Assembly: GCA_037974665.1 (NCBI GenBank)
Contig: CM075766.1
Coordinates: 51,778,569 to 51,842,568 of the forward strand
Direction of reading: 5' to 3'
Source of the DNA: Ehretia macrophylla
Lineage: Eukaryota > Streptophyta > Magnoliopsida > Boraginales > Ehretiaceae
DNA: 64,000 nt
Shown here piece by piece: positions 17,788-56,921 of the stretch. The position numbers and the translations under genes were made by a program. The stretch's first letter is position 1, and the number at the start of each line of letters is the position of its first letter. The notes under the pieces are model-generated. The model did no database searches. It was not told the origin of the DNA and saw only the letters and a list, made by a program, of their open reading frames with translations.

Positions 17788-17862
17788 GCATCCAGTAGGA
17801 ATCGAACCTACAAATTTGCCCTTTTACTAGGTTAAGCGCTTTAACCATTCAGCCATGGATGC
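17788..17862 (-). ncRNA. tRNA-like t-element at the 3' end of ccmC
   Basis: On the minus strand GCATCCA (17862-17856) pairs perfectly with TGGATGC (17794-17788), forming a 7-bp acceptor stem. GTAGG-TTCGATT-CCTAC forms a perfect T arm. The ends resemble the CAU-anticodon isoleucine tRNA of plant organelles, but the middle does not form a proper anticodon stem, so it is not a working tRNA. It overlaps the last codons and the stop codon of ccmC. Plant mitochondria are known to use such t-elements, cut by the tRNA-processing enzymes RNase P and RNase Z, to make mRNA ends, and to my recollection ccmC is one of the genes reported. In the nucleus it is presumably inert. Confidence 0.75.
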
Positions 17863-27368: not shown

Positions 27369-29453
27369 TATATTGCCTTAAATTTTATAATTTAATTGTT
27401 GTTAGCTAGAATTAACATTTCCTTAGTTGTTTTAGCTTAAAAATGCATGAAAATAGGCTATTTGACCAATTTTAAGTTAGTTGACCAAGGGGGTTTGACC
27501 TTTGACCAAGTTGTCATCTTTTAAATAAGCAAATAACAAAGAAAAATAAAAGACAAAGCCAAAAATTCAGTCCTTGAGCTGGCCGAAATATTGAAGAGAA
27601 AAAAAACCATTTTCAACTTTCAAAACTTCCAATCTTCGCGTGAGCTTGTGCGGGATTGTTACCGAGCCATCCAGCGTTGTTTTCCTAGCGATTAGGAGTG
27701 CCTAAGGTGAGGGAAGCATGTTATTTGCGCATTCAAATGTCAAGTATGTTAACTTTATGATTTTTAGATTTTATCCGTAGATTGTTGTTTTAATCTTTTT
27801 GAAGCTTCTAGAATGTTCCTTGCCAATTGTAGAACATGTATTTATAGTTTTTTTTAACATTTTCTGCGGTTAAATGTTGAGATTGCAATTTAAATTGGTT
27901 GTTGAATAGTAATTTATGAATAGTAAACCCTTGAAATGATGAAGTTGCGCTGTTATGCTTTCTATTGATGTAAAAATGTGCTAGGTATGCTAGAATGCCT
28001 AAATGCATGGTTTGTTTAAGTTGCGTAATGGAAAAATCGAGAAAAATGCATTGGTGAAAGTCGGGGTCTTTTAGGTCGACTTTAGCGTTTTCTCATTTTG
28101 CGTGTTGGCATTGTTTCGGGAGGCCATGGAAGCACTTTTGGTGCGATTATGGCGTTGGTTGGGTGTTTGGTTGGTATAATTGTAGTTCAAACGAGCAAAT
28201 GGGGAAATCGGGGCTTTGCGTGAATTCTAGGGTTAAGTAGGGTTTCAGGGTCTTTAGACGTGCCCTATGGTGACCTAGGAGGATTGGTGAAGTCGGTTTC
28301 CAGAACTCGTGGCTCGTTTGGAAATGGTAGCGTTTTGATAGTTGGGGCCGATTTGTGATTTTGCTTGTTATCTTGATATTATGCATACAGAATGTTTAAA
28401 ATAGCTTGATATGCTTATTATAGTTGATTTTGATTGGAATGGTTATCAATTGTTGCTATTGCGTGCGAGAGTAACCTACTTTGTTATTCTCCCACGTGTG
28501 GCTTTATCGCTCAATTGTTGCATTGTATATTGTGTTGCATTCATAGAGTCAGGGCGGTGTGATGGGCCTCTTTGGGTAGCCTCGGGTTGCCAGTGTTGGT
28601 TGCTCTAACTCCGTGTCCTATTCCCTCTTCTCGCTTGGGTTATCTCCCAGGGAGATTTGGGTCGTAGATTGATGGATACTTCAGGGGTATTCCAAACTGG
28701 TGTTATAAGGTGGTTTAGGCCGGCGCATCGTCATCGAATTCGTGATTGAAAGTGGCTCGTGAAAAGAGTATCGTATCCTTTGAATGAGTGTTTATAGCTT
28801 TAATTCTTGCCTTGCTTTATTGATGGCTTTGTTTGTATCTCTATATGATATTTGTATGAATTGCTTGACTAATTGCATTGCATACTCCTCTCATCTCCGT
28901 CCTTGAGACCAATTGCCTCGCTGAGCAATAGTTTTTGCTCATTCCTTTCTATACTATATTTTTTACAGGAGTAGTTGAAGCAGACCCTATTGAGGTAATA
29001 GAGGAGGAGGAGCAGGTGGAGGTGTTTCCGTGATAGCACTTCTTTGCTTTGCTGGTGGTTGGTTGCCAGACTTTTTGTGCGAGCCATGCTTGATGTGTTT
29101 AATGCCTGGTTGTCGTTTTGTTTTGAGGCTTATAGTCTTGTATGTAGTATCTATTTTGAGGCCTAGATGGTCTTATATTGTAAAGGATTAAAGGTTGTAA
29201 TGTTGTAAATATATACTCATGTGACTAGTAAAGAAATGCATGCTAATAGTTAATTGTTTAGTAGCATAAATAATTGTGTAGTATGCATATCATTTTTGGG
29301 TTGCAAAGTTGTTAATGAAAAGATGTATGTTTTCTAAAATAAAGTTGGCTTGTTTTAATTGTTTTTATGGCTTTCGCAAGTATTATGTTGATTTTAGGGT
29401 TTTCGGATCGTCTGCGGTACAGAGGAGACTCCGTCCGTGTGTCGGGTCCAGGC
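27369..29453 (+). repeat. 5' LTR of 27369-39388 element, first part
   Basis: It matches 37099-39388 from about 170 bp into that LTR. TTGAC motifs are at 27461-27507 and the hairpin at 28922-28941. The remaining end of this LTR is found at 32131-32164, beyond the solo LTR. Confidence 0.88.
29449..29453. repeat. Target-site duplication, left copy (CAGGC)
   Basis: CAGGC directly precedes the solo LTR and recurs directly after it at 32126-32130. Outside the copies the host LTR continues uninterrupted (GGGTCC before, TTGGCC after). Confidence 0.92.
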
Positions 29454-30066
29454 TGTAACACCCCGATCCCTCTCAAGACCAGGAGTTCTATCAATTAATC
29501 TAATCACAACCCAAAACCAAACCCGGGCATAATTTTCAGGGAAAACGAACGGAGTCTCCCCTATTTCTAGGCAAAATGTAAAACCCTGTAACAACATATA
29601 AGTGGACCAATACCTTGTCCAAACATTCAACCACCTCAAGGCCATCCGAGCCTTGGTTCTCAACAACTAAACACAGCATATAAATATACATTTCCAGTTT
29701 AAAGCTAACCTATCTCTTTACATCTTTTACAAGAACATTCAAGCTTGACATTAAATCCATACTAATCTACTGCACAAAATATACTATCATACCATTCTCA
29801 CTCTTTTCTTTTAGACAATTACAAACATGCATCGGGTTAACTATACTACTGAATACATAACTAACTTATCAATCTACCTCAACTACTTAGCTAGATTAAA
29901 TTACATTTCTTTTAACAATAAATACATACAACATATGAACATACATCTTTACATCTTTGACAGCTCAAGCCACAAAGCACGCAAGACAACTCTTCAGGCA
30001 CGAACTAACACATATCCACGAACTTTTCAGCTAACAAGGCATTTCCTAAAATGTGGTGGTGAGGAG

Positions 30067-30091
30067 TGAGTATACACAACACGTATACTCA
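30067..30091 (-). promoter_or_regulatory. LTR hairpin (family 3)
   Basis: TGAGTATAC and GTATACTCA form a perfect 9-bp stem with a 7-base loop, next to the CTCACTGAG context also seen in family 2. The stem sequence differs from those of families 1 and 2 while pairing is kept. Confidence 0.65.
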
Positions 30092-31556
30092 GTGAGGGCG
30101 AGACAGATATCGAGTTGGAGAGAAAGAAGATCGTGCAATGCAAATAATCACAGTTAAGCAATAAAGACAATAAGGAAACATTCAATACAAACAAGAATAC
30201 TATAAGCAATCAAGAAAGCATTAACACAGCCCTTTAAAGCTATACCACACTCTGAAGGCTGTGGTTCACTCACACGAGCAATATACCATTTCACGAGCGA
30301 TACATCAATCTTGAGCTTGATGTTTGACAACGATGACAATAAGCGCGCATCCACCTTATAACACCAGTTTGGAATACCCCGGAAGTATCCATCAATTCTA
30401 CGACCCAAATCTCCCTGGGAGGCAACCCAAGCGAGAATGGGAATAGCAGCGGAGCTAGAGCAACCAACACTGGCAACCCGAGGCTACCCAGAGAGGCTCA
30501 TCATTCACGCGCGAGACACTATGCAATGCAAGACTCGATACAAGGCAATAAACGAGCGATAAACAAGATATCAAGCATTCTCAACAATGGATAAACATTT
30601 CAATCAAAAACTAACTCTAACAAGTGGAATAAGCATTAGCAAGCATAGCAAGCAATAAAAAGCATTAACAAGCATTCTATAGGCATAACATCAAGAAAAC
30701 ACACAAAGTCACAAATCGGCCCCAACTATCAAAACACTACCATCTCCAAACGAGCCACGAGTTCCGGAAACCGACTTCGCCAATCTTCCTAGGTCACTAT
30801 AAAGCACGTCTAGAGACTCCGAAACCCTACTTAACCCTAGAATTCACGCAAAGCCCGATTTTCCCCCTTTTCTCGTTTGAACTACAACTATACCAACCAA
30901 ACACCCAACCAACACCACGACCGCACCAAAAGTGCTTCCATGGGCTCCCGAAACAATGTTATCACGCGAAACGAGAAAATGCTAAAGTCGACCTAAACGA
31001 CCCCGACTTTCACTAAGCCATTTTTCTCCGTTTTTCTATTACACATTCCAATTAAACCACACATTTAGGCATTCTAGCATATCTAGCACATTTCTACATC
31101 AACGGACAGCATAACGGAACAACTTCATCGTTTCAAGGGTTTACTATTCATAAAGCACTATTCATTAATCAATTTAAATTGCAATCTCAACATTTAACCG
31201 TAGAAAATGTTAAAAAGCTATAAATACATGTTCTACGATTGCTAGGGAACATACTTTAAGCCTCAAAACGATTTAAATAACACTATACGGATAAATCTCA
31301 AAAATCAAAGTTAACACACAAAACTTTCAAATGCGCAAATAAACATGAAACCCTCACCTTAGACGCTCCTAGACGCTAGGAAACCCACGCTGGAAGCCTT
31401 GGAAACCACCTCGCACAAGCTCCCGCGAAGAAATTGAAGTTTGAAGTTGAAATGTTTTTTGTTTTCTTTCTCTCTATGTTTCGGCCCTCCCATTCTGTTT
31501 TCCAGCTTTTTTCCTTTATTTTCCTTGTTAATTTAAGCTTATAAAAGATGCTAAAA

Positions 31557-37098: not shown

Positions 37099-39388
37099 TA
37101 TAATACCTGTGCCCGGAATGTGGAATTTTCTTGATTAACTTTCTGGAAATTATATTTCTTAAATTCTTTGAGATTTAATTGTTACTTCATTGCTGTCGCA
37201 ATGTGCATTGCATATCGGGAGCGATAGCTAGAGAGTGGTTCCTAGTCCTCAGCAAATAGTGAAACTAGTATTTTAGTGCCTTAAATTTTATAATTTAATT
37301 GTTGTTAGGTAGAATTAACATTTCCTTAGTTGTTTTAGCTTAAAAATGCATGTAAATAGGCTATTTGACCAATTTTAAGTTAGTTGACCAAGGGGGTTAG
37401 ACCTTTGACCAAGTTGTCATCTTTTAAATAAGCAAATAACAAAGAAAAATAAAAGACAAAGTTGAAAACTAAGTCCTTGAGCTGGCCGAAATATTGAAGA
37501 AAAAAAAAACCATTTTCAACTTTCAAAACTTCCAATCTTCGCGTGAGCTCGTGCGGGGTTGTTACCGAGCCATCCAGCGTTGTTTTCCTAGCGACTAGGA
37601 GTGCCTAAGGTGAGGGAAGCATGTTATTTGCGCATTTAAATGTGAAGTATGTTAACTTTGTGATTTTTAGATTTTATCCGTAGATTGTTGTTTTAATCGT
37701 TTTGAAGCTTCTAGAATGTTCCTTGCCAATTGTAGAACATGTATTTATAGTTTTTTAACATTTTTTGCGGTTAAATGTTGAGATTGCAATTTAAATTGGT
37801 TGTTGAATAGTAATTTATGAATAGTAAACCCTTGAAATAATGAAGTTGCACTGTTATGCTTTCTGTTGATGTAAAAATGTGCTAGGTATGCTAGAATGCC
37901 TAAAGGCATGGTTTGTTTAGGTTGCGTAATGGAAAAATTGAGAAAAATGCCTTGGTGAAAGTTGGGGTCGTTTAGGTCGACTTTAGCGTTTTCTCATTTT
38001 GCATGTTGGCATTGTTTCGGGAGGGCATGGAAGCACTTTTGGTGCGATTATGGCATTGGTTGGGTGTTTGGTTGGTATAGTTGTAGTTCAAACGAGCAAA
38101 GGGGAAAATCGAGGCTTTGCATGAATTCTAGGGTTAAGTAGGGTTTCGGGGTCTTTAGACGTGCCTTATGGTGACCTAGGAGGATTGGTGAAGTCAGTTT
38201 CCAGAACTCGTGGCTCGTTTGGAAATGGTAGCGTTTTGATAGTTGGGGCCGATTTGTGATTTTGCTTGTTATCTTGATATTATGCATATAGAATGTTTAA
38301 AATAGCTTGATATGCTTATTAGAGTTGATTTTGATTGGAATGGTTATCAATTGTTGCTATTGCGTATAAGAGTAACCTACTTTGTTATTCTCCCATGTGT
38401 GGCTTTATCACTCGATTGTTGTATTGTATATTGTATTACATTCATAGAGTCAGGGCAGTGTGATGGGCCTCTCTGGGTAGCCTTGGGTTGCCAGTGTTGG
38501 TTGCTCTAGCTCCGTGTCCTATTCCCTCTTCTCGCTTGGGTTGCATCCCATGGAGATTTGGGTCGTAGATTGATGAATACTTTCGGGGTATTCCAAACTG
38601 GTGTTATAAGGTGGTTTGGGCCGGTGCGTCGTCATCGAATTCGTGATTGAAAGTGGCTCGTGAAAAGAGTATTGTATCCTTTGAATGAGTGTTTATAGCT
38701 TTAATGCTTGCCTTGCTTTATTGATGGCTTTGTTTGTATCTCTATATGATATTTGTATGAATTGTTTGACTAATTGCATTGCATACTCCTCTCATCTCCG
38801 TCCTTGAGACCAATTGCCTCGCTGAGCAATAGTTTTTGCTCATTCCTTTCTATACTATATTTTTTACAGGAGTAGTTAAAGCAGACCCTATTGAGGTAAT
38901 AGAGGAGGAGGAACAGGTGGAGGTATTTCCGTGATAGCACTTCTTTGCTTTGCTGGTGGTTTGTTGCCAGACTTTTTGTGCGAGCCATGCTTGATGTGTT
39001 TAATGCTTAGTTGTCGTTTTATTTTGAGGCTTATAGTCTTGTATGTAGTATCTATTTTGAGGCCTAGATGGTCTTATGTTGTAAAGGATTAAAGGTTGTA
39101 ATGTTGTAAATATATACTCATGTGACTAGTAAAGAAATGCATGCTAATGGTTAATTGTTTAGTGGCATAAATAATTGTGTAGTATGCATATCATTTTTGG
39201 GTTGCAAAGTTGTTAATGAAAAGATGTATGTTTCCTAAAAGAAAGTTGGCTTGTTTTAATTGTTTTTATGGCTTTCGCAAGTATTATGTTGATTTTAGGG
39301 TTTTCGGATCGTCCGCGGTACAAAGGAGACTCCTTCCGTGTGTCAGGCCCGGGCTTGGCCTTTTGCGGGGTCGGGTCGGGGCGTGACA
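37099..39388 (+). repeat. 3' LTR of 27369-39388 element
   Basis: It is about 2290 bp, begins TATAATACCTGTGCCCGG (changed from TGTAATACC) and ends GGGGCGTGACA. TTGAC motifs are at 37363-37410 and the hairpin at 38823-38842. The next bases, AGCAC, belong to the unrelated island. Confidence 0.92.
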
Positions 39389-40620: not shown

Positions 40621-40988
40621 CCTTATTTTGGCATGAATTTCTTTTGGGTAAGGAAGTCACTCGTCGCCACATTATCTGTCACGAATCGTGACATGCCTCC
40701 ACGTTTTCTAGTAGTGCACTATTTGTAATACCTGAGCCCGGAATGTGAATTTTCTTGTTTATTATTTTGAAAATTAAATTTCCTTAAATTCTTTGTGAAT
40801 TAATTGTTACTTTCTCGCTGTCGCAACGTGCATTGCATTTAAGGAACGATAGCTAGAGAACGGTTTCTAGTCCTCAGCAAATAGTGAAACTAGTATTTAG
40901 ATGACTTAAATTTTATATTTTAATTGTTGCTAGCTGAAAATTTATTTGGTGTTAGTTATTGAGCTTGAAAATGCACAAAAATAGAGCC

Positions 40989-41037
40989 TTTGACCAAGTT
41001 TTAAGTTGGTTGACTTGGACCTTTGACCCTTTGACCA
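40989..41037 (+). promoter_or_regulatory. TTGAC (W-box-like) cluster in family-1 LTR
   Basis: Several TTGACC/TTGACT cores lie within about 50 bp (CTTTGACC, GTTGACTT, CTTTGACC, CTTTGACC), upstream of the GGCCGAGAGCTTTGAGAGA segment and the poly-A run. Equivalent clusters occur in every family-1 LTR in the window. These are known WRKY-factor cores; actual use is inferred. Confidence 0.55.
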
Positions 41038-42440
41038 TTTAACACTTAAAAAAGCATTTAACTAAGCAAAATAAAAAAAACAGCAGCTGGACAGAGGGAG
41101 AAGGCCGAGAGCTTTGAGAGAAAAAAAAACCTTTCAACCTTTCAATCGTTCAATCTTCGCGTTAGCTCGTGCGGGGGGATTTCCGAGGCAGCTAGCGTTG
41201 TTTACCTAGCGACTAGGAGTACCTGAGGTGAGGGAATCATGCTATTTGCGCATTTAAATGTTTAGTGTATCAACTTTGCAATTTTGAGATTTTATCCGTA
41301 GATTGTTGTTTAAAGCGTTTTGATGCTTCTAGAATGTTCCTTAGCTATTGTAGAACGTATATTTATAGCTTTTTCACATTTTCTACGGTTAAATGTTGTG
41401 ATTGCAAATTAAATTGTCAATTGAATAGTGTTTTGTGAATAGTAAAACCTTGAAACGATAAAGTTGCTCCGTTATGCTATCCGTTGATGTAGGATTGTGC
41501 TAGGTGTGCTAGAATGCCTAAATGTGTGGTTTGTTTGGGTTGCGTAGTGAGAAAAACGGGAATTAAGCCTTGTTGAAAGTCGGGGTCGTTTAGGTCGACT
41601 TTAGCATTTTCTCGTTTTGCGTGTTGGCTTTACTTCGGGAAGCCATGGAAGCACTTTTGGTGCGATTATGGCGTTGGTTGGGTGTTTGGTTGTTATAGTT
41701 GCAGTTCAAACGAGAAAGGGGGAAATCGGGGCTTTGCGCGAGTTCTAGGGTAAAGTAAGGTTTCGGGGTCTTTAGACGTGCCTTATGGTGACCTAGGAGG
41801 GTTGGCGAAGTCGGTTTCCAGAACTCGTGGCTCGTTTGGAAATGGTAGCGTTTTGATAGTTGGGGCCGAGTTGTGTTTTTGTGTGTTTTCTTGACTTTGT
41901 GCCTATAGAATGCTTAGGGTTACTTGAAATACTTGTTTGAGTTGTTTAGGGTTGAAATGCTTATCAATTGCTGCTATTGCGTGCGAGAATAACCTACTTT
42001 GTTATTCTTTCACGTGTGGCTTTATCGCTTGTTTATTGCCTTGTATCGACTCTTGTATTGCATAGTGTCTCGCACGTGAGTGATGGGCCTCTCTGGGTAG
42101 CCTCGGGTTGCCAGTGTTGGTTGCTCTAGCTCTGCTGCTATTCCCTTTCTCACTTGGGTTGCCTCCCAGGGAGATTTGGGTCGTAGGTTGATGGATACTT
42201 CCGGGGTATTCCAAACTGGTGTTATAAGGTGGTTTGGGTCAGCGCGTCGTCATCGAATTTGTGTTTGAAAGTTGCTCGTGAAAAGAGTATCGTATCCTTT
42301 GAATGAGTGTTTGCAGCTTTAAATACTTGCCTTGCTTTATTGTTGGCTTTGGTTGTATCTCTATATGATTTGTATGTATTGCTTGACTAATTGCATTGCA
42401 TACTCCTCTCATCTCCGTCCTTGAGACCAATTGCCCTCGC

Positions 42441-42460
42441 TGAGCAATAGTTTTTGCTCA
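42441..42460 (+). promoter_or_regulatory. LTR hairpin (family 1)
   Basis: TGAGCAA-TAGTTT-TTGCTCA is a perfect 7-bp stem with a 6-base loop, just after CCTCGC. It is conserved at 1510, 22922, 26447, 28922, 38823, 56867 and 58654. In the shared LTR at 49654 one stem base is changed. It lies about 25 bp upstream of a TTTTTACAG acceptor-like site. Confidence 0.6.
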
Positions 42461-43307
42461 TTCTTCTCTATACTATATTTTTACAGGAGTAGTTGAAGCA
42501 GACCCTCTTGAGGTAATTGAGGAGGAGGAACAGGTGGAGGTGTTCCCGTGATTGCACTTCTCTGCTTCGCTAGTGGTTGGTTACTAGATTTTGTGCGAGC
42601 CTTGCATGATATGTATATTGCTTGGATGTTGTTTAATTTTGAGGCTTGTAGCCTTGTATGTATTTTCTAGTTGAGGCCTCTACGGTCTTATGTTGTATAA
42701 GTTGAAAGAATGTAAAGTTGTAAACTTATACTCTTGTGACTAGTAAGGAAATGCATGCTAATGGAATTGATTAGAGGCATAAATACTTGTGTAGTATGCA
42801 TATCATTTTTGGTTTGGAAAGTTGGTTAATAAGAAATGCATATTTTAAAGAAAGTTGGCTTGTTTTGATTGTTTTATGGCTTTCGCAAGTATTATATTGA
42901 TTTTAGGGTTTTCGGATCGTCCGCGGTACAGAGGAGACTCCGTCCGTGTGTCGGGTCCGGGCTTGGCCTTTTGCGGGGTCGGGTCGGGGCGTGACATCTT
43001 TAGGTAGTATCAGAGCATGATAGTCTTGCATGAGCCGGGATATGATTCTCGGTCTGTGGGGTAAAGGTCTAAAATGCTAAAGTGTTTATGTATGATTGCT
43101 AAGTAAAAAGAAATGTTCTGGCATGACTATGTGAACTTGGAATGTTTATGTGTCTAAGTGAAATAGTTTGGCAAGTTAAACTTGTCTTATGTGAATTGTG
43201 TGATAGAATATTGGATTGTTATTGATTTGAGTGTTATATAATCTTATGTGCTATATTTCTGTCTATAAACTGCTTTTAAATGTTGCCAGCTATTGTGAAT
43301 TGCTACT

Positions 43308-44520
43308 ATGCCGCCATGTCGTGGTACTCAAGGTATTGGATCAGATGAAGAGGCAGCAGAACAGGGTCAGCAGCCGTTGCCTGAGCAGTTTATGGCTACC
43401 ATGACTACTGTAGTAGACCGGATCACACAGGTACTACATGAGCAGAGGCAAGATAGGAATAATCCCTAGGGAAATCAAGCTAATCCTGGTGGACAGGGGT
43501 ACAGAGTTGAGAATAATCAGCTAGAGAAATTTCTGAGGCATGAGCCAGGAAAGTTTTTCGGGGAGCCGGATGATGAGGCGGCCGAGAGATGGATTAATTG
43601 TGTTGAGAAAATTTTCACCGCTTTGAGGTTCACTGATGAGGCAAGAATAGATTATGCATCATTTTTATTTGAGGGTAATGCAGAGTAGTGGTGGAATACT
43701 GTCAGATTGAGGTGGGATTGTGAGGATGTTCCACATTTATGGGATGATTTTGTGAGTGAGTTTCGGGACAAATATATTCCCGAGATGGCTATGGAAAGGC
43801 GGGAGGATGAGTTTGTGGCCCTGAAGTAGGGAAACATGACTGTTGCACAGTACGAGGCTAGGTTTGTTAGCCTGTCGAGGTATATGCCCGAGTTGGTACG
43901 GCCGGCTAGGAGGATGATACATAGGTTTGTCCGTGGGCTGAGAATGGACATTCAGTAGCATTTGACTGGGCAGACCTACACTACTTTTCCCGAGGCATTT
44001 CAGGCAGCCTCGAAGTTTGAGAAATGGAAGGCTGAGATGATAGCTGAGAGCAGTCAGCCGAGTAAGAAGCAGTATTTGGGCCAGAGCAGCCAGAGTCAGC
44101 CGAGGCAGTATCAGACTTCTGCACAGGTTCCTCAGCAGCGTCCATATCAGCCACAGCAGCAGATTCAGGCTAGGCCAGCTGTGACTAGACCCCAGCAGGG
44201 AGGTACAGTTCCTACCCCTGCCATAGCCCCAACACCTACGGGAAACACTACGGTTAGGCAAAATCAGCAGTGTAATTATTGTAATCGATCAGGCCATATT
44301 GAGGCTAACTGCTGGAGGAAGAGTGGTAAATGTACGGGTTGTGGCAGTGATGATCACAGGGTGAGAGATTGCCCTAAGTATAATAATGTTCAGGGCCGTG
44401 GTGGAGGCCAAGGTGTTCAGAATAGGGCTGCAGGTGCACGTCCAGCACAGAGAGTTCAGGCTAGGGTCTTTGCACTAGATGCGGAGGAGCTGCCCGGTAG
44501 TACAGCTAGTGTGGAAGGTA
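43308..44520 (+). pseudogene. Decayed gag region, array unit 1
   Basis: The likely start is ATG at 43308 (MPPCRGTQGIGSDEEAAEQ). It includes the capsid-type core, the segment MTGQTYTTFPEAFQAASKFE, a Q-rich linker and two CCHC knuckles ([28 protein letters not shown]) at about 44270-44375. It is broken. Confidence 0.85.
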
Positions 44521-47500
44521 CCTTTCTTCCCAACACTCAGCCAGTTAAAGGATTGATCCAGGAGCTACACATTCGTTTATAACTCCTGCATGTGCACGAT
44601 CTGTGAATGTTTGCATTGATAAATTGCCTCATGAAGTTGAAGTTAGTACTCCTTTGGGTGCAAAATTTGTTACTGAGTCTATTTGCAAATCTTGTGATAT
44701 ATGCATTGAGAACCGTAAATTTCCTGCTGATTTAATTATATTGCCATTCCGTGACTTTGAAATCATTTTGGGAATGGACTGGTTGGGAAAGTATTATGCT
44801 CAGTTGGATTGTAGAACAAAGGTCATTTATCTTAAGGTTCCTGACCTACCGGTACTAGAGATTGTTGGGAACTGGAGGGCTGCCCGAATTCCACTTTTAT
44901 CAGCGATCAAGACTTCTAAGTTATTGAATAGGGGTTGTGAAGCTTACTTAGCCTATTTGATCAATCAGCCTACTGATAAGTTGAGTTTGAATGAGGTTCC
45001 GATTGTTAGAGACTTCCCTGGTGTATTTCCCGAGGAATTACCGGGTTTACCACCGGATAGGGAGATTGAGTTCGTGATTGATCTTGTGCCAGGCACTGCG
45101 CCAATTTCTAGGAGTCCTTATAGAATGGCATCGGCTGAACTTCAGGAGTTAAAAATTCAGCTTCAGAACTTGCTTGAGAAAGGGTTTATACAACCTAGTT
45201 CTTCACCGTTGGGCGCACCTGTATTGTTTGTGAGAAAGAAAGACGGCACGCTACGGTTATGCATTGATTACAGGGGACTTAATCAAGTCACGATTAAGAA
45301 TAAATACCCCTTGCCGTTGATTGAAGAATTGTTTGACTAGTTGCAGGGTGCGAGTGTTTACTCCAAATTTGACTTGAGGCAAGGTTACTCTCAACTTAGG
45401 ATTCGGAGTGATGATGTACCAAAGACGGCATTCAGGACTAGATATGGCCACTATGAGTTTGTTGTTTTGCCGTTTGGTTTGACTAATGCACCAGCCGCAT
45501 TCATGGACTTGATGCAGAGGGTTTTTCGACCTTACCTTGATCAGTTTGTCGTGATCTTTATTGACGACATTTTAGTGTATTCGAAGAATGAGGCTGAACA
45601 TGAGCAACACATGAAGATTGTGCTACAGACCTTGCAGGAAAACAAGCTTTTTGCTAAATTCAGCAAGTGCGAGTTTTGGTTGAATCAGATATCTTTTCTA
45701 GGCCATATCAATTCAGATCGAGGAATTTCAGTGGACCCAGCTAAAATTGAAGTTGTTTCTTCATGGAAGAGACCTGAGACAGTGGCAGAGATTCGGAGTT
45801 TTCTTGGATTGGCAGGTTACTATCGGAGATTTGTTAAAGACTTTTCCAAAATTTCTGGACCTTTGAGCTAGTTGACTCGGAAGAAAGTTGCTTACAACTG
45901 GGATGCTAAGTGTGAATCCAGTTTCCAAGAATTGAAGAAGAGACTAACTACAGCTCCTATACTAGCTTTACCTGAGGGAATAGAGAACTTCGTTGTCTAC
46001 AGTGATGCATCTAAAGAAGGTTTGGGCTGTGTTTTAATGCAGAATGGTAAGGTGATTGCTTATGCTTCCAGGAAGTTGAAACCTTATGAAGTCAATTACC
46101 CTACACATGATCCAGAGTTAGCTGCAGTTGTGTTTGCTTTGAAGAAGTGGCGTCATTACTTGTAGGGTTGGAGATTTGAAATATTTACTGACCACAAGAG
46201 TCTCAAGTATTTGTTTTCACAGAAGGATCTGAATATGAGGCAGCGAAGATGGCTAGAGCTATTGGGTGGTTATAAATATGCTATTAACTACGTGCCAGGT
46301 AAGGCAAATATTCTTGCTGATGCTTTGAGCCGGAAGGCAACTGTTGCAAGCTTGATTATCAAGGATTGGGAGACTTTGGAAGAAATTTGTTCATGGAAGC
46401 CAGAAGCTACTGAGGTAGGGATTTGATTTGCTAGTTTACAGATTCAGTCAGGGTTGCTAGCACAAATCAGAGAGGCTCAGAAGACTGATCCTCACCTCTT
46501 GAAGATCCAAGAAAAAGCTAAAGGGGGAGAGTCGGAGTTTAAATTACATGCAGATGTCATCTTCAGATTCAGGGACAGTGTGTGTGTTCCTGGTGATCCG
46601 ACTTTGAAGAATGAGATCCTGTCCAAGGCACATAATTCGAGGTATACGATTCACCCGGGCAGTACTAAAATGTATAGGGATTTGAAGCAACACTTCTGGT
46701 GGAACAATATGAAGAGGGAGATTGTTGGGTATGTATCCAGATGTTTGACTTGTCAAAGGGTTAAAGTTGAGCATCAGAGGCCAGCCGGACTTCTACAACC
46801 GTTGTCGATTCCGCAATGGAAGTGGGTACATATAACAATGGACCTTGTTACCGATCTTCCTAGATCTCCGAGAGGATGTGATTCTGTTTGGGTTGTTGTG
46901 GACCGCTTGACTAAAGTTACACATTTTATTTCTGTGAACAAACAGGATAGCCTTGATAAGCTAGCTGAACTTTATGTTGCTAATATTGTGAGATTGCATG
47001 GTGTGCCAGAGAGTATAGTGTCAGATAGGGATCCCAGATTCAGATCTCGTTTTTGGCAGAAGTTGCAAGAGGCCATGGGAATTAAGTTGAGCTTTAGTAC
47101 TGCATATCATCCGCAAACTGATGGCCAGTCTGAGAGAACCATCAGGATCTTGGAAAACATGCTTCGGGCATGTGTGCTAGACTTTAGGAAGAATTGGGAA
47201 AAGTTTTTGCCTTTAGCGGAGTTCGCCTACAACAATAGTTATCAATCTACTATAGGTATGGCTCCCTACGAGGCGTTGTATGGTCGGAAGTGCAGATCCC
47301 CGTTATATTGGGAAGAGGTTGGATAGATGAGAACAGTTGATCCGACTGTGTTACCTGAGATGATTAAGATGGTAGATAATGTTCACCTTATTCGCCAACG
47401 TATGCTTACAGCTCAGAGTCGTCAGAAGAGTTATGCAGATAAGCACCGTCGGGATCTTGAGTTTGATTTGGGAGATTGGGTGTTTCTTAAGATTTCTCCA

Positions 47501-47890
47501 TGGAAGGGATTGATTCGGTACGATAAGAACGGGAAGCTTAGTCCCAGGTATGTGGGTCCGTATGAGATCACCGAAAAGGTAGGTCCTTTGGCTTATCGGT
47601 TAGCTTTGCCTCCGAGCTTGTCGAGACTGCACGATGTGTTCCACGTGTCTATGTTGAAGAAATATCATCTAGACCCTTCACATGTACTTGAACCAGAGCC
47701 TTTGCAGATTGAAGAGAAGTTGTCTTATGAAGAGAAATCGATTCGAATTATCGATCGGAAAATTCAGGAGCTTCGCAGGAAGAGTATTCCGTTAGTAAAG
47801 GTTCTGTGGAATTATCATGGGTTTGAGGAAGCAACTTGGGAAAGAGAGGACCAGGTTCGGGATCAGTATCCGGAGTTGTTTGTTGACTAG
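44520..47890 (+). pseudogene. Decayed pol region, array unit 1
   Basis: The order is protease (about 44530-44790), RT (about 45120-45860; [10 protein letters not shown] active-site region near 45560), RNase H (about 45990-46340; [20 protein letters not shown]) and integrase. Integrase runs about 46640-47330 with [35 protein letters not shown] and [16 protein letters not shown] module and a chromodomain-like end close it, before the LTR at 47932. It is broken in several places. Confidence 0.88.
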
Positions 47891-47931
47891 GTAGGAATTG
47901 CGTGGGCGCAATTGTTTTAAGGGGGAGAGGG

Positions 47932-50209
47932 CGTAATACCAGAGCCCGGAATGTGAATTTTCTTGTTTATTATTTTGAAAATTATATTTCCTTAAATTCT
48001 TTGTGAATTAATTGTTACTTTCTCGCTGTCGCAACGTGCATTGCATTTAAGGAACGATAGTTATAGAACGGTTTCTAGTCCTTAGCAAATAGTGAAACTA
48101 TTATTTAGATTACTTAAATTTTATATTTTAATTGTTGCTAGCTGAAAATTTATTTGGTATTAGTTATTGAGCTTGAAAATGCACAAAAATAGAGCCTTTG
48201 ACCAAGTTTTAAGTTGTTTGACTTGGACCTTTGACCCTTTGACCATTTAACACTAAAATAAGCATTAACTAAGCAAAAAAAAAAAAAAAAACAGCAGCTG
48301 GACAGAGGGAGAAGGCCGAGAGCTTTGAGAGAGAAAAAAAAACCTTTCAACCTTTCAATCGTTCAATCTTAGCGTGAGCTCATGCGGGGTGATGTCCGAG
48401 GCAACTAGCGTTGTTTTCCTAGCGACTAGGAGTACCTGAGGTGAGAGAATCTTGCTATTTGCGCATTTAAATGTTTAGTGTATCAACTTTGCAATTTTTA
48501 GATTTTATCCGTAGATTGTTGTTTAAAGCATTTTGATGCTTCTAGAATGTTCCTTATCTATTGTAGAACGTATATTTATGGCTTTTTCACATTTTCTACG
48601 GTTAAATGTTGTGATTGCAAATTAAATTGTCAATTGAATAGTGTTTTGTGAATAGTAAAACCTTGAAATAATAAAGTTGCCCAGTTATGCTGTCCGTTGA
48701 TGTTGGATTGTGCTAGGTGTGCTAGAATGCCTAAATGTGTGTTTTGTTTGGGTTGCGTAGTGAGAAAAACGGGAATTAAGCTTTGTTGAAAGTCGGGGTC
48801 GTTTAGGTTGACTTTAGCATTTTCTCGTTTTGCGTGTTGGCATTGCTTCAGGAAGCCATGGAAGCACTTTTGGTGCGATTATGGTGTTGGTTAGGTGTTT
48901 GGTTGTTATAGTTGTAGTTCACACGAGAAAGGGGGAAATCGGGGCTTTGCGCGAGTTCTAGGGTAAAGTAAGGTTTCGGGGTCTTTAGACGTGGCATATG
49001 GTGACCTAGGAGGGTTCGCGAAGTCGGTTTCCAGGACTCGTGGCTCGTTTGGAAATGGTAGCGTTTTGATAGTTGGGGCCGAGTTGTGTTTTTGTGTGTT
49101 TTCTTGACTTTGTGCCTATAGAATGCTTAGGGTTACTTGAAATACTTGTTTGAGTTGTTTAGGGTTGAAATGCTTATCAATTGCTGCTATTGCGTGCGAG
49201 AATAACCTACTTTGTTATTCTTTCACGTGTGGCTTTATCGCTTGTTTATCGCCTTGTATCGACTCTTGCATTGCATAGTGTCTCGCGTGTGAGTGATGGG
49301 CCTCTCTAGGTAGCCTCAGGTTTCCAGTGTTGGTTGCTCTAGCTCCGTTGCTAATCCCTTTCTCGCTTGGGTTGCCTCCCAGGGAGATTTGGGTCGTAGG
49401 TTGATGGATACTTCTGGGGTATTCCAAACTGGTGTTATAAGGTGGTTTGGGCCGGCGCGTCGTCATCGAATTTGTGTTTGAAAGTTGCTCGTGAAAAGAG
49501 TATCGTATCCTTTGAATGAGTGTTTGCAGCTTTAAATACTTGCCTTGCTTTATTGTTGGCTTTGGTTGTATCTCTATATGATTTGTATGTATTGCTTGAC
49601 TAATTGCATTGCATACTCCTCTCATCTCCGTCCTTGAGACCAATTGCCCTCGCTAAGCAATAGTTTTTGCTCATTCTTCTCTATACTATATTTTTACAGG
49701 AGTAGTTGAAGCAGACCCTCTTGAGGTAATTGAGGAGGAGGAACAGGTGGAGGTGTTCCCGTGATTGCAATTCTCTGCTTTGCTAGTGGTTGGTTACCAG
49801 ATTTTGTGCGAGCCTTGCATGATATGTATATTTCTTGGATGTTGTTTAATTTTGAGGCTTGTAGCCTTGTATGTATTTTCTAGTTGAGGCCTCTACGGTC
49901 TTATGTTGTATAAGTTGAAAGAATGTAAAGTTTTAAACTTATACTCTTGTGACTAGTAAGGAAATGCATGCTAATGGAATTGATTAGAGGCATAAATACT
50001 TGTGTAGTATGCATATCATTTTTGGTTTGGAAAGTTGGTTAATAAGAAATGCATATTTTAAAGAAAGTTGGCTTGTTTTGATTATTTTATGGCTTTCGCA
50101 AGTATTATATTGATTTTAGGGTTTTCGGATCGTCCGCGGTACAAAGAAGACTCCGTCCGTGTGTCGGGTCCGGGCTTGGCCTTATGCGGGGTCAGGTCGG
50201 GGCGTGACA
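47932..50209 (+). repeat. Shared middle LTR of tandem array
   Basis: It is about 2278 bp, preceded by a polypurine tract (47919-47931) and followed by a primer-binding site (50218-50229). It is therefore 3' LTR of unit 1 and 5' LTR of unit 2 at once. Its first base is changed (CGTAATACC). TTGAC motifs are at 48197-48244. Confidence 0.95.
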
Positions 50210-50217
50210 TCTTTAGG

Positions 50218-50229
50218 TGGTATCAGAGC
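50218..50229 (+). other. Primer-binding site (initiator Met tRNA)
   Basis: TGGTATCAGAGC lies nine bases after the shared LTR. Confidence 0.9.
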
Positions 50230-50520
50230 ATGATAGTCTTGCATGAGCCGGGATATGATTCTCGGTCTGTGGGGTAAAGGTCGAAAATGCTAAAGTGTTT
50301 ATGTATGATTGCTAAGTAAAAAGAAATGTTCTGGCATGACTATGTGAACTTGGAATGTTTATGTGTCTAAGTGAAATAGTTTGGCAAGTTAAACTTGTCT
50401 TATGTGAATTGTGTGATAGAATATTGGATTGTTATTGACTTGAGTGTTATATAATCTTATGTGCTATATTTCTGTCTATAAACTGCTTTTAAATGTTGCC
50501 AGCTATTGTGAATTGCTACT

Positions 50521-51730
50521 ATGCCGCCACGTCGTGGTACTCAAGGTATAGGATCAGATGAAGAGGCAGCAGAACAGGGTCAGCAGTCGTTGCATGAGCA
50601 GTTTATGGCTACCATGACTACTGCAGTAGACCGGATCACACAGGTACTACATGAGCATAGGCAAGACAGGAATAATCCCCAGGGAAATCAAGCTAATCCT
50701 GGTGGACAGGGGGACAGAGTTTAGAATAATCAGCTAGAGAAATTTCTGAGGCATGAGCCGGGAAAGTTGTTCGGGGAGCCGGATGATGAGGCGGCCGAGA
50801 GATGGATTAATCGTGTTGAGAAAATTTTCACCGCTTTGAGGTACACTGATGAGGCAAGAATAGATTATGCATCATTTTTATTTGAGGGTGATGCAGAGTA
50901 GTGGTGGAATACTGTCAGATTGAGGTGGGATTGTGAGGATGTTCCACATTTATGGGATGATTTTGTGAGTGAGTTTCGGGACAAATATATTCCCGAGATG
51001 GCTATGGAAAGGCGGGAGGATTAGTTTGTGGCCCTGAAGAAGGGAAACATGACTGTTGCATAGTACGAGGCTAGGTTTGTTAGCCTGTCGAGGTATATGC
51101 CCGAGTTGGTACGGCCGGCTAGGAGGATGATACATAGGTTTGTCCGTGGGCTGAGAATGGACATTCAGTTGCATTTGACTGGGCAGACCTACACTACTTT
51201 TCTTGAGGCATTTCAGGCAGCCTCGAAGTTTGAGAAACGGAAGGCTGAGATGATAGCTGAGAGCAGTCAGCCGAGTAAGAAGCAGTATTTGGGCCAGAGC
51301 AGCCAGAGTCAGCTGAGGTAGTATCAGACTTCTGCACAGGTTCCTCAGCAGCGTCCGTATCAGCCACAGCAGCAGATTCAGGCTAGGCCAGCTGTGACTA
51401 GACCCCAGCAGGGAGGTACAGTTCCTACCCCTGCCAGAGCCCCAGCACCTACGGGAAACACTGCGGTTAGGCAAAATCAGCAGTGTAATTATTTTAATCG
51501 ATCGGGCCATATTGAGGCTAACTGTTGGAGGAAGAGTAGTAAATGTACGGTTGTGGCAGTGATGATCACAGGGTGAGAGATTGCCCTAAGTATAATAATG
51601 TTCAGGGCTGTGGTGGAGGCCAAGGTGTTCAAAATAGGGCTGCAGGTGCACGTCCAGCACAGAGAGTTCAGGCTAGGGTCTTTGCACTAGATGCGGAGGA
51701 GCTTCCCGATACTACAGCTATTGTGGAAGG
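50521..51730 (+). pseudogene. Decayed gag region, array unit 2
   Basis: The likely start is ATG at 50521 (MPPRRGTQGIGSDEEAAEQG). Capsid core, Q-rich linker (PQQQIQARPAVTRPQQGG) and CCHC knuckle region are in the same order as in unit 1. It is broken in a few places. Confidence 0.85.
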
Positions 51731-54700
51731 TACCTTTCTTCTCAACACTCAGCCAGTTAAAGTTTTGATTGATCCCGGAGCTACACATTCGTTTATAACT
51801 CCTGCATGTGCACGATCTGTGAATGTTTGCATTGATAAATTGCCTCATAAAGTTGAAGTTAGTACTCCTTTGGGTGCAAAATTTGTTACTGAGTCTATTT
51901 GCAAATCTTATGATATATGCATTGAGAACCGTACATTTCCTGCTGATTTAATTATATTGCCATTCCGTGACTTTAAAATCATTTTGGGAATGGACTGGTT
52001 GGGAAAGTATTATGCTCAGTTGGATTGTGGAACAAAGGTCGTTTATCTTAAGGTTCCTGACCTACCGGTACTAGAGATTGTTGGGAACTGCAGGGCTGCC
52101 CGAATTCCACTTTTATCAGCGATCAAGACTTCTAAGTTGTTGAATAGGGGTTGTGAAGCTTACTTAGCCTATTTGATCAATCAGCCTACTGATAAGTTGA
52201 GTTTGAATGTGGTTCCGATTGTTAGAGACTTCCCTGGTGTATTTCTTGAGGAATTACTGGGTTTACCACCGGATAGGGAGATTGAGTTCGTGATTGATCT
52301 TGTGCCAGGCACTGCGCCAATTTCTAGGAGTCCTTATAGAATGGCATCGGCTGAACTTCAGGAGTTAAAAATTCAGCTTCAGAACTTGCTTGAGAAAGGG
52401 TTTATACAACCTAGTTCTTCGCCGTGGGGCGCACCTGTGTTGTTTGTGAGAAAGAAAGACGGCACGCTACCATTATGCATTGATTACAGGGGACTTAATC
52501 AAGTCATGATTAAGAATAAATACCCCTTGCCGTTGATTGAAGAATTGTTTGACCAGTTGCAGGGTGCGAGTGTTTACTCCAAATTTGACTTGAGGCAAGG
52601 TTACTATCAACTTAGGATTCGGAGTGATGATGTACCAAAGACGGCATTCAGGACTAGATATGGCCACTATGAGTTTATTGTTTTGCCGTTTGGTTTGACT
52701 AATGCACCAGCCGCATTCATGGACTTGATGCAGAGGGTTTTTCAACCTTACCTTGATCAGTTTGTCGTGATCTTTATTGACGACATTTTAGTGTATTCGA
52801 AGAATGAGGCTGAACATGAGCAACACATGAAGATTGTGATACAGACCTTGCAGGAAAACAAGCTTTTTGCTAAATTCAGCAAGTGCGAGTTCTGGTTGAA
52901 TCAGATATCTTTTCTAGGCCATATCAATTCAGATCGAGGAATTTCAGTGGACCCAGCTAAGATTGAAGTTGTTTCTTCATGGAAGAGACCTGAGACGGTG
53001 GAAGAGATTCGGAGTTTTCTTGGATTGGCAGGTTACTACCGGCGATTTGTCAAAGACTTTTCCAAAATTTCTGGACCTTTGAGCTAGTTGACTCGGAAGA
53101 AAGTTGCTTACAACTGGGATGCTAAGTGTGAATCCAGTTTCCAAGAATTGAAGAAGAGACTAACTACAGCTCCTATACTAGCTTTACCTGAGGGAATAGA
53201 GAACTTCGTTGTCTACAGTGATGCATCTAAAGAAAGTTTGGGCTGTGTTTTAATGCAGAATGGTAAGGTGATTGCTTATGCTTCCAGGAAGTTGAAACTT
53301 TATGAAGTCAATTACCCTACACATGATCTAAAGTTAGCTGCAGTTGTGTTTGCTTTGAAGAAGTGGCGTCATTACTTGTGGGGTTGCAGATTTGAAATAT
53401 TTACTGACCACAAGAGTCTCAAGTATTTGTTTTCACAGAAGGATCTGAATATGAGGCAGCGAAGATGGCTAGAGCTATTGGGTGGTTATAACTATGCTAT
53501 TAACTACGTGCCAGGTAAGGCAAATGTTCTTGCTGATGCTTTGAGCCGGAAGACAACTGTTGCAAACTTGATTATCAAGGATTGGGAGACTTTGGAAGAA
53601 ATTTGTTCATGAAAACCAGAAGCTACTGAGGTAGGGATTCGATTTGCTAGTTTACAGATTCAGTCAGGGTTGCTAGCACAAATTAGAGAGGCTCAGAAGA
53701 CTGATCCTCACATCTTGAAGATCCAAGAAAAAGCTAAAGGGGGAGAGTCGGAGTTTAAATTACATGCAGATGGCATCTTCAGATTCAGGGACAGGATGTG
53801 TGTTCCTGGTGATCCGACTTTGAAGAATGAGATCCTATTCGAGGCACATAATTCGAGGTATACGATTCACCCGGGCAGTACTAAAATGTATAGGGATTTG
53901 AAGCAACACTTCTGGTGGAACAATATGAAGAGGGAGATTGCTGGGTATGTATCCAGATGTTTGACTTGTCAGAGGGTTAAGGTTGAGCATCAGAGGCCAG
54001 CCGGACTTCTACAGCCGTTGTCGATTCCGCAATGGAAGTGGGTACATATAACAATGGACCTTGTGACCGATCTTCCTAGATCTCCGAGAGGATGTGATTC
54101 TGTTTGGGTTGTTGTGGACCGCTTGACTAAAGTTACACATTTTATTTCTATGAACAAACAGGATAGCCTTGATAAGCTAGCTAAAATTTATGTTGCTAAT
54201 ATTGTGAGATTGCATGGTGTGCCACAGAGTATAGTGTCAGATAGGGATCCCAGATTCAGATCTCGTTTTTGGCAGAAGTTGCAAGAGGCCATGGGAACTA
54301 AGTTGAGCTTCAGTACTGCATATCATCCGCAAACTGATGGCCAGTCTGAGAGAACCATCAGGATCTTGGAAGACATGCTTCGGGCATGTGTGCTAGACTT
54401 TGGGAAGAATTGGGAGAAGTTTTTGCCTTTAGTGGAGTTCGCCTACAACAATAGTTATCAATTTACTATCGGTATGGCTCCCTACGAGGCGTTGTATGGT
54501 CGGAAATGCAGATCCCCGTTATATTGGGAGGAGGTTGGAGAGATGAGAACAGTTGATCCGACTGTGTTACCTGAGATGATTAAGATAGTAGATAATGTTC
54601 ACCTTATTCGCCAGTGTATGCTTACAGCTCAGAGTTGTCAGAAGAGTTATGCAAATAAACACCGTCGGGATCTTGAGTTTGATTTGGGAGATTGGGTGTT

Positions 54701-55136
54701 TCTTAAGATTTCTCCATGGAAGGGATTGATTCGGCACGGTAAGAGCGGGAAGCTTAGTCCCAGGTATGTGGGTCCGTATGAGATCACCGAAAAGGTAGGT
54801 CCTTTGGCTTATCGGTTAGCTTTGCCTCCGAGCTTGTCGAGACTGCACGATTTGTTCCACGTGTCTATGTTGAAGAAATATCATCTAGACCCTTCACATG
54901 TACTTGAACCAGAGCCTTTGCAGATTGAAGAGAAGTTGTCTTATGAAGAGAAACCGATTCGAATTGTGGATCGAAAAATTCAGGAGCTTCGCAGGAAGAG
55001 TATTCTATTAGTAAAGGTTCTGTGGAATTATCATGGGTTTGAGGAAGCAACTTGGGAAAGAGAGGACCAGGTTCGGGATCAGTATCCAGAGTTGTTTGTT
55101 GACCAGGTAGGAATTGCGTGGGCGCAATTGTTTTAA
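51730..55136 (+). pseudogene. Decayed pol region, array unit 2
   Basis: Protease ([14 protein letters not shown]) lies at about 51765-52000. RT is at about 52350-53080, with [20 protein letters not shown] and [10 protein letters not shown]. RNase H is at about 53210-53560. Integrase is at about 53860-54560, and the GPY/F and chromodomain-like segments run to about 55090. It is better kept than unit 1, with only a few interruptions visible, but still broken. Confidence 0.88.
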
Positions 55137-55147
55137 GGGGGAAAGGA
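55134..55147 (+). other. Polypurine tract
   Basis: AAGGGGGAAAGGA-type purine run immediately before the third LTR of the array. Confidence 0.75.
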
Positions 55148-56921
55148 TGTAATACCCGAGCCCGGAATGTGAATTTTCTTGTTTATTATTTTGAAAATTA
55201 TATTTCCTTAAATTCTTTGTGAATTAATTGTTACTTTCTCGCTGTCGCAACGTGCATTGCATTTAAGGAACGATAGCTAGAGAACGGTTTCTAGTCCTCA
55301 GCAAATAGTGAAACTAGTATTTAGATGACTTAAATTTTATATTTTAATTGTTGCTAGTTGAAAATTTATGTGGTATTAGTTATTGAGCTTGAAAATGCAC
55401 AAAAATAGAGCCTTTGACCAAGTTTTAAGTTGTTTGACTTGGACCTTTGACCCTTTGACCATTTAACACTTAAATAAGCATTTAACTAAGCAAAATAAAA
55501 AAAAAACAGCAGCTGGACAGAGGGAGAAGGCCGAGAGCTTTGAGAGAAAAAAAAACCTTTCAACCTTTCAATCGTTCAATCTTCGCGTGAGCTCGTGCGG
55601 GGTGATTTCCGAGGCAACTAGCGTTGTTTACCTAGCGACTAGGAGTACCTGAGGTGAGGGAATCATGCTATTTGCGCATTTAAATGTTTAGTGTATCAAC
55701 TTTGCAATTTTTATATTTTATCCGTAAATTGTTGTTTAAAGCGTTTTGATGCTTCTAGAATGTTCCGTAGCTATTGTAGAACGTATATTTATAGCTTTTT
55801 CACATTTTCTACGGTTAAATGTTGTGATTGCAAATTAAATTGTCAATTGAATAGTGTTTTATGAATAGTAAAACCTTGAAACGATAAAGTTGCTCCATTA
55901 TACTGTCCGTTGATGTAGGATTGTGCTAGGTGTGCTAGAATGCCTAAATGTGTGGTTTGTTTGGGTTGCGTAGTGAGAAAAACGGGAATTAAGCCTTGTT
56001 GAAAGTCGGGGTCGTTTAGGTCGACTTTAGCGTTTTCTCGTTTTACGTGTTGGCATTGCTTTGGGATGCCATGGAAGCACTTTTGGTGCGATTATGGTGT
56101 TGGTTGGGTGTTTGGTTATTATAGTTGTAGTTCAAACGAGAAAGGGGGAAATCGGGGCTTTGCGCGAGTTCTAGGGTAAAGTAAGGTTTCGGGGTCTTTA
56201 GACGTGCCTTATGGTGACCTAGGAGGGTTAGCGAAGTCGGTTTCCAGAACTCGTGGCTCGTTTGGAAATGGTAGCGTTTTGATAGTTGGGGCCGAGTTGT
56301 GTTTTTGTGTGTTTTCTTGACTTTGTGCCTATAGAATGCTTAGGGTTACTTGAAATACTTGTTTGAGTTGTTTAGGGTTGAAATGCTTATCAATTGCTGC
56401 TATTGCGTGCGAGAATAACCTACTTTGTTATTATTTCACGTGTTGCTTTATCGCTTGTTTATCGCCTTGTATCGAGTCTTGCATTGCATAGTGTCTCGCG
56501 AGTCAGTGATGGGCCTCTTTTGGTAGCCTCGGGTTGCCAGTGTTGGTTGCTCTAGCTCCGCTGCTATTCCCTTTCTCGCTTAGGTTGCCTCCCAGGGAGA
56601 TTTGGGTCGTAGGTTGATGGATACTTCCGGGGTATTCCAAACTGGTGTTATAAGGTGGTTTGGGTCAGCGCGTCGTCATCGAATTTGTGTTTGAAAGTTG
56701 CTCGTGAAAAGAGTATCGTATCCTTTGAATGAGTGTTTGCAGCTTTAAATACTTGCCTTGCTTTATTGTTGGCTTTGGTTGTATCTCTATATGATTTGTA
56801 TGTATTGCTTGACTAATTGCATTGCATACTCCTCTCATCTCCGTCCTTGAGACCAATTGCCCTCGCTGAGCAATAGTTTTTGCTCATTCCTCTCTATACT
56901 ATATTTTTACAGGAGTAGTTG
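55148..56921 (+). repeat. Third LTR of tandem array (left part; interrupted by nested element)
   Basis: It begins TGTAATACCCGAGCCCGG and matches the other family-1 LTRs up to GGAGTAGTTG, about 1774 of about 2275 bp. There the next element starts abruptly. TTGAC motifs are at 55412-55460 and the hairpin at 56867-56886. The rest of the LTR should lie beyond the right edge of the window. Confidence 0.92.

Follow-up and report, generated by a model that had tools for sequence, protein, structure and literature searches.

The hairpin at positions 42441-42460 of the window (the whole 64-kb stretch of DNA analysed here) probably forms the branch-point hairpin of a U2-type intron that lies wholly within the long terminal repeat (LTR) of plant Ty3/gypsy chromovirus-like elements, with masking of the branch point by the stem leading to inefficient splicing. 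We give this reading a probability of roughly 60%. Its anatomy, in which the 3' arm of the hairpin is a CTCAY branch-point consensus in an intron wholly inside the LTR, is well supported. At the level of sequence, the reading is based on the hairpin itself, on paired changes at the inner positions of its stem, on a donor and an acceptor flanking the predicted intron, and on exact loss of this intron in two families.

The LTR hairpin and its splice-site context

The family 1 hairpin reads TGAGCAA-TAGTTT-TTGCTCA on the plus strand, a perfect 7-bp stem closed by a 6-nt loop, and CTCGCTGAG adjoins the stem in the sequence read at 42441-42460. Other LTR copies carry the same hairpin on the plus strand at 1510-1529, 22922-22941, 26447-26466, 28922-28941, 38823-38842 and 56867-56886, and at 58654-58673 it is accompanied by an altered 3' splice site. 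The stem is intact in eight of the nine family 1 copies, the ninth LTR (49649) having a single stem base changed, with TAAG replacing TGAG and breaking one pair of the hairpin at 49654-49673 (plus strand). On the minus strand, the family 2 hairpin (TGAGCTT/AAGCTCA) was found at 4211-4232 and again at 11611-11632 in a second LTR, for which the patterns used revealed no donor, and the family 3 hairpin (TGAGTATAC/GTATACTCA) was found at 30067-30091. The preliminary description of this DNA had placed the hairpins of three families at these positions, and had noted that their stem letters differ with pairing kept, that they occupy the same place in the LTR in several families and that their loops vary; all of these observations were borne out.

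CTCRCTGAG occurs 12 times in the 64-kb window against 0.67 expected, with three or fewer occurrences in each of 100 shuffles, and 11 of the 12 sites are LTR hairpins (eight of family 1, two of family 2 and one of family 3). The twelfth site (17870-17878, minus strand; CTCGCTGAG) was set aside as a chance match that has no hairpin and lies beside a plastid-type tRNA-Leu. A plastid-like stretch at 17786-17878 contains matches to tRNA-Leu and to the ycf2 5'UTR family. A comparison of the window with Rfam at gathering score returned only tRNA and the plastid ycf2 5'UTR family, and the hairpin matched no model. Immediately 5' of the stem, an unpaired CTC(A/G)C is common to the three window families, being CTCGC at 42436-42440 (plus strand) in family 1 and CTCAC at 4233-4237 and 30092-30096 (minus strand) in families 2 and 3, respectively. 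Neither pairing nor the branch-point model explains why it is shared.

The window is packed with LTRs and Ty3/gypsy-type open reading frames (ORFs), in which the Pfam domains RVP_2, RVT_1, RNase H, integrase and Tf2-like SH3 were recognized; the one family 2 ORF scanned contained RVP_2 and RVT_1. A Chromo match is located at the right place with an E-value of 0.0054, below the Pfam cut-off, and the domain content suggests a chromovirus-like element type with a sub-threshold chromodomain. Three family 1 LTRs within 40724-56921 are spaced by 7,213 nt, as in a tandem LTR-internal-LTR-internal-LTR array.

The family 1 LTR that holds the hairpin extends approximately from 40724 to 42997 on the plus strand, and its transcript can be read as two exons separated by one intron. 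Exon 1 would occupy 41100-41227, its start being a guess, followed by a predicted intron of 1259 nt at 41228-42486 (GTGAGG...TTTTTACAG). Toward the 3' end of this intron, CTCAT at 42457-42461 represents the candidate branch point, with A at 42460 as the putative branch adenosine, and is paired with the TGAG of the stem base. A pyrimidine-rich tract and a CAG 3' splice site follow at 42462-42486, and exon 2 (42487-42997) then runs to the LTR end, beyond which lies the primer-binding-site-like TATCAGAGC. Introns of the same kind are predicted on the minus strand in one family 2 LTR (4187-5354, GTGAGAG...CATACAG) and in family 3 (30046-31357, GTGAGGG...ATTTTAG), the latter having an exactly spliced relative (L091) described below.

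Among 23 representative loci, in which CTCAY is present by construction because the searches imposed it outside the window, the first AG is positioned 17-25 nt after the candidate branch A of CTCAY in 21. This first AG is a YAG in 20 of the 23, and L110, L111 and L112 are without a recognisable YAG there. As a background, the window contains 921 CTNAY sites, and in 17% of them the first AG follows at 18-30 nt, compared with 87% of the representatives. The pyrimidine fraction between branch candidate and acceptor has a mean of 0.79 over the 23 representatives, and the downstream sequence in most of them reads CTCAYTC-pyrimidines-TTTCAG/G (a slash following AG or CAG here and below marks the splice junction). 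In L035, L042 and L053, which are relatives of family 2, CTCACCCTCATTC or a near form leads to a second CTCAY a few nucleotides downstream, outside the hairpin.

At the other end of the predicted intron, the donors read GAG/GTGAGGG in family 1 (the 42436 copy), AAAG/GTGAGAG in family 2 and AAG/GTGAGGG in family 3, with close variants in most other loci looked at and no convincing donor in L034. A pattern search detected AG/GTGAG or AG/GTAAGG upstream of the hairpin in 67 of 94 loci and no donor in the other 27. The donor distance is 1.09-1.48 kb for 60 of these 67 loci and 0.56-0.83 kb for the remaining seven. Within the window, a donor is present in all nine family 1 LTRs and lacking in one of the two family 2 LTRs. 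Two features of a U2-type intron are thus present, the GT...AG ends with an AG/GTRAG-like donor and, ahead of the acceptor, a pyrimidine tract preceded by a branch-point consensus. Because a pyrimidine tract and a YAG follow about 20 nt after CTCAY, because donors are found and because spliced copies exist, we regard the hairpin as part of an intron acceptor.

Paired change in the stem across the host genome

All searches were performed in a single genome, that of the host (1.58 Gb, 20 contigs), in which the counts of repeats are lower bounds. CTCRCTGAGN{10,26}CTCAYTC gave 22,131 matches (10,956 plus 11,175), and the same flanking pattern read backwards gave five (2 plus 3). Other stems among the matches listed are TGAGTTC/GGACTCA, TGAGTAAC/GTTACTCA, TGAGCTA/TAGCTCA, TGAGCA/TGCTCA and TGAGTT/AACTCA. 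At G000:C4:45882199-45885771, five hairpin matches are spaced by exactly 885 nt, a regularity that resembles a satellite-like tandem array of LTR origin.

The outer four pairs (TGAG/CTCA) and the adjoining CTCRC were fixed by the searches, and the inner letters of the 3' arm were free in every search. The search-imposed positions therefore give no evidence either way outside the window, and only the inner positions can be judged. Stem spellings were taken from the first 100 listed of the 22,131 matches and from the first 100 listed of 462 matches, with a few variants omitted and one string truncated at a CTCACCC that it contains. All three inner positions are paired in 24 of 27 distinct spellings of the first set, for which the inner bases were free; these spellings are not independent because 12 are of the TAT/ATA type. 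Reshuffling of the 3' arms gave 9.1 on average and never more than 16. In the second set, for which a T at the second inner position was forced, 19 of 30 spellings are fully inner-paired (reshuffled mean 10.3, maximum 18). Viral contigs served as a control for a similar pattern: of the 123 matches listed, which come from at least 120 stretches and were treated as chance, seven have all three inner positions paired. The pairing that had been noticed in the window thus still holds in the larger set provided by the host genome.

The stem was further analysed in an alignment (A1) of 22 representatives from 13 flank groups, which were picked for variety. Single-linkage clustering of the flanks had placed 33 sequences into 14 groups, or 13 without L106. 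In this last locus the hairpin flanks are present, but a pyrimidine tract and a clear acceptor are missing and the stem breaks at the fifth pair; it was excluded from A1 and from the acceptor and folding counts. A1 omits L034, L035, L038, L039, L042, L054, L065, L067 and L114, whose unusual first or second inner base was search-forced, and L070, L115 and L116 were kept although they had been drawn by a search forcing an unusual base. L107-L110, L112, L113 and L117 came from a search in which the second inner position had to be A and the third G or C, and L098, L099, L101-L105 and L111 were picked from a search forcing T at the second. By these origins, 18 of the 22 representatives were drawn with some constraint on their 5' inner letters.

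Over the seven pairs of the 22 representatives, 95.5% of stem cells are paired, compared with 82.4% upon shuffling of the 3' letters and 26-38% upon sliding them. Cells changed on both sides number 20, against a shuffled mean of 7.2, and none of 500 shuffles reached this value. The covariation score, calculated without tree correction, is 0.376 for the true partners, 0.147 for shuffled and 0.019-0.087 for slid ones. The number of pairs with change on both sides in these 22 representatives (three) is not above the shuffles (412 of 500 as high), and the number of further pair types (nine) is not clearly above them (69 of 500 as high). At the innermost position, six of the 22 are not paired. Paired change is also seen inside one flank cluster, where the first inner pair is U-A in L100 and C-G in L107. 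The local folds are not unusually stable, with z-scores between -2.06 and 0.66 for 10 folded regions. Selection on the RNA fold, as had been proposed from the window, is the best reading of a pairing that is kept despite letter change at a shared place in the LTR.

Genomic copies lacking the intron and conservation within it

A 25-nt probe for the family 3 exon-exon junction found a single match in the host genome, with two mismatches, and its reversed control found none. The alignment of the matching locus, L091, with the family 3 LTR is split into 713-844 and 2154-2364, with predicted exon ends at 843 and 2156; the two parts overlap past the exon ends because a few letters are shared at the junction. 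L094 and L095, which flank L091, continue U3 and the LTR end, and ATGGG is found directly on both sides of the LTR. Taken together with these neighbours, L091 looks like a solo LTR that derives from spliced RNA.

For family 2, the junction probe matched four sites lying within about 33 kb of one another (G000:C2:7314626-7347882), and its reversed control matched one. Two of the four cluster copies were read (L096 and L097), and both are relatives of family 2 with an exact intron-less junction. Three of the four junctions are about 3.02 kb apart. The cluster perhaps represents a lineage of short elements whose spliced LTRs are arranged in tandem, and its four spliced copies may go back to a single event followed by local amplification. 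The probe for family 1 was built from the copy at 42436, which differs by one base from most window copies at the end of exon 1, and it revealed no spliced LTR in the host genome; its two matches (L092 and L093) are unrelated sequence without alignment to the LTRs and were discarded as chance.

Unspliced junctions were counted with probes of equal length and mismatch limit. The comparison gave at least 10,534 unspliced junctions versus one spliced for family 3, and at least 17,981 versus four for family 2, with zero and one match, respectively, in the reversed controls of the unspliced junctions. Each copying of spliced RNA yields an LTR from which the intron is gone, so that an element can keep its intron only by copying mainly unspliced RNA. 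As judged from these genomic copies, the junction counts fit copying of mainly unspliced RNA, for which the stem would be the cause.

The intron body is also conserved between families 1 and 3. When 41254-42249 (plus strand) was aligned with approximately 30353-31330 (minus strand), identity was 79-94% in eight of ten 100-column blocks and 60% and 75% in the remaining two. Outside the intron body the two families are hardly alignable, with an identity of 50-55% in U3 and of 37-58% from about 42250 on, hairpin and exon 2 included. The intron would either hold something needed by the element or have been exchanged between families. A structured, packaging-like RNA was considered for the conserved block and gained no support from folding, with z-scores of 0.01 and 0.04 in families 1 and 3 and -0.61 in a family 2 stretch.

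Exon 2 of the family 2 type (window 4095-4184, minus strand; 14 copies) has one indel-free frame with its stop at the same codon, and two of the 14 copies contain an extra internal stop. In seven of eight pairs of these exons the third codon position differs most (e.g. 1, 7 and 12 differences at positions 1, 2 and 3), and it ties with the second position in one. This type of exon 2 may encode the last part of a short protein. An in-frame ATG in exon 1 was found in only one of 10 family 2-type copies, and no single exon 2 frame is consistently open in the other families (22 of 30 rows); for these two reasons we make no claim for a spliced LTR protein.

A proposed masking model of LTR splicing, its alternatives and its relatives

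According to our model, the LTR transcript would be composed of a short exon 1, an intron mostly 1.1-1.4 kb in length and exon 2. The CTCAY before the acceptor would serve as the 3' arm that pairs with TGAG, and the inner pairs would lengthen the stem, which would partly hide the branch point from U2 snRNP and lead to inefficient splicing. Unspliced RNA would then remain available for reverse transcription and regenerate an intron-bearing LTR, and spliced RNA would serve expression. From this arrangement we infer the branch adenosine, the masking, the direction in which it acts and the part played by each RNA. In partition-function folding, CTCA is predicted to be paired with a mean probability of 0.83, versus 0.48 with the upstream sequence shuffled, and the value is higher than its shuffled counterpart in 22 of 23 representatives. 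Predicted CTCA pairing is weak or absent in L099 (0.01), L107 (0.52), L117 (0.59) and L110 (0.66). Since the TGAG/CTCA pairs were imposed by the searches, the branch-point pairing itself lies outside what covariation tests.

A wider proposal can be offered tentatively, with odds that we place clearly short of even. It supposes that retrovirus-style balanced splicing has been moved into the LTR of a major plant Ty3/gypsy group, in which a branch-point-masking hairpin kept by compensatory change would determine how much unspliced genome RNA there is relative to spliced RNA. The intron, which outdoes the remainder of the LTR in conservation when families 1 and 3 are compared, would hold what makes unspliced RNA the copied form, and the spliced LTR of one lineage may also express a short peptide.

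The same anatomy could operate with the opposite sign, the hairpin helping splicing either by presenting the branch A at the stem base or by bringing the upstream CTCAC nearer to the acceptor. The branch A indeed belongs to the last and usually weakest stem pair (predicted at about 0.8 in many representatives, with neighbours at about 1.0). In 18 of 22 representatives an unpaired CTCAC precedes the stem directly; it could be an alternative branch point, and with the stem looped out it would come to lie at a shorter distance from the AG. However, the upstream site is CTCGC in four of the 22, family 1 included, with G in place of adenosine at the would-be branch base, which makes the downstream CTCAY the better candidate, and an AG sits within the 5' arm. 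The rarity of spliced LTR copies also better fits weak splicing or exclusion of spliced RNA, although exclusion alone would suffice, and we consider a helping role unlikely. The brake on splicing could, alternatively, be regulated rather than constant, with the hairpin acting as a binding site at which a host or element protein (e.g. Gag) turns splicing off. Some proteins read structure, and their sites vary in stem letters and loops, as these hairpins do. The unpaired CTC(A/G)C beside the stem in all three window families (it is search-imposed in the wider set), unexplained by pairing, would also suit such a site. Loops that differ in both length and sequence argue against a protein site, which in our judgement is decidedly unlikely.

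The preliminary description had proposed 3'-end formation or dimerisation as its role, to which packaging can be added, with the splice-site context being incidental, and conserved stem-loops have been described in long retroviral R regions (PMC3601003). This proposal did not hold up as the main role, given that the hairpin precedes a pyrimidine tract and a YAG in 20 of 23 representatives at a narrow spacing, that there are matching 5' splice sites as well as genomic copies from which the intron is exactly removed, and that the hairpin would be wholly absent from a spliced RNA; we judge it very improbable. The palindrome could instead act in DNA as a transcription-factor site or be a by-product of recombination, as CTCACTGAG is itself nearly palindromic and the pattern is present at about 22,000 places. 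The inner stem letters, however, change in pairs with varying loops and at a narrow distance to the acceptor, so that a role in DNA appears remote.

The masking model shares features with several known systems. BARE1, a Ty1/copia element of barley, likewise has spliced and unspliced RNA pools, with spliced RNA used for translation, but its 104-nt intron is located in the coding region and its removal leaves a Gag-only RNA (PMC3735527). The present elements are by contrast Ty3/gypsy, and possess an intron in the LTR and a covarying hairpin at the putative branch point. Ogre and EVADE also have functional introns and have been called notable exceptions among plant LTR retrotransposons. Their introns differ in generating subgenomic RNAs by alternative splicing, that of EVADE removing the protease domain, and the available portion of this account describes no intron wholly inside an LTR (PMC12786077). 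In sunflower, Tyran and Varan were found by direct RNA reads to produce spliced and unspliced RNAs, but the isoforms concern internal ORFs, and Tekay members are absent from the expressed set in the portion of the report available (PMC7730604).

Outside plants, balanced splicing in retroviruses follows the same logic as that proposed here, in that inefficient signals retain unspliced genomic RNA. The signals described are weak splice sites, nonconsensus branch points, which are among the means used by simple retroviruses, and interrupted pyrimidine tracts (PMC12789967), whereas in the LTRs a stem would mask a good consensus branch point. A branch point engineered into a ligand-bound RNA structure (an aptamer) was spliced less in experiments (PMC2275289), as our model would have it for the LTR hairpin; that system is synthetic and ligand-dependent, whereas the one described here is natural and, as far as seen, without a ligand. 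The stem-loops of retroviral R regions resemble the present hairpin in being conserved by pairing within LTRs. In that study, the variable lengths of plant Metaviridae LTRs prevented models from being built for them, and 'splice' is absent from the main text (PMC3601003). In the portions available, none of the accounts of plant elements cited above has an intron inside an LTR or a hairpin at a branch point. Among the papers listed in searches of the literature, a body that includes few subscription papers, none describes, as far as titles and abstract openings show, an intron in an LTR, a hairpin in a Tekay LTR, or such a donor and acceptor together with solo LTRs in plants.

Few worked examples address the question of how plant LTR retrotransposons divide their transcripts between translation and copying, and an LTR intron with a covarying branch-point hairpin represents a compact element that can be tested with reporters. 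Exact intron loss marks the LTRs that were made from spliced RNA. If our reading is true, the LTRs of this group could donate a promoter, a first exon, an intron and an acceptor to neighbouring genes, which bears on annotation, and their hairpins would constitute a natural branch-point-masking stem present in many families and thousands of copies.
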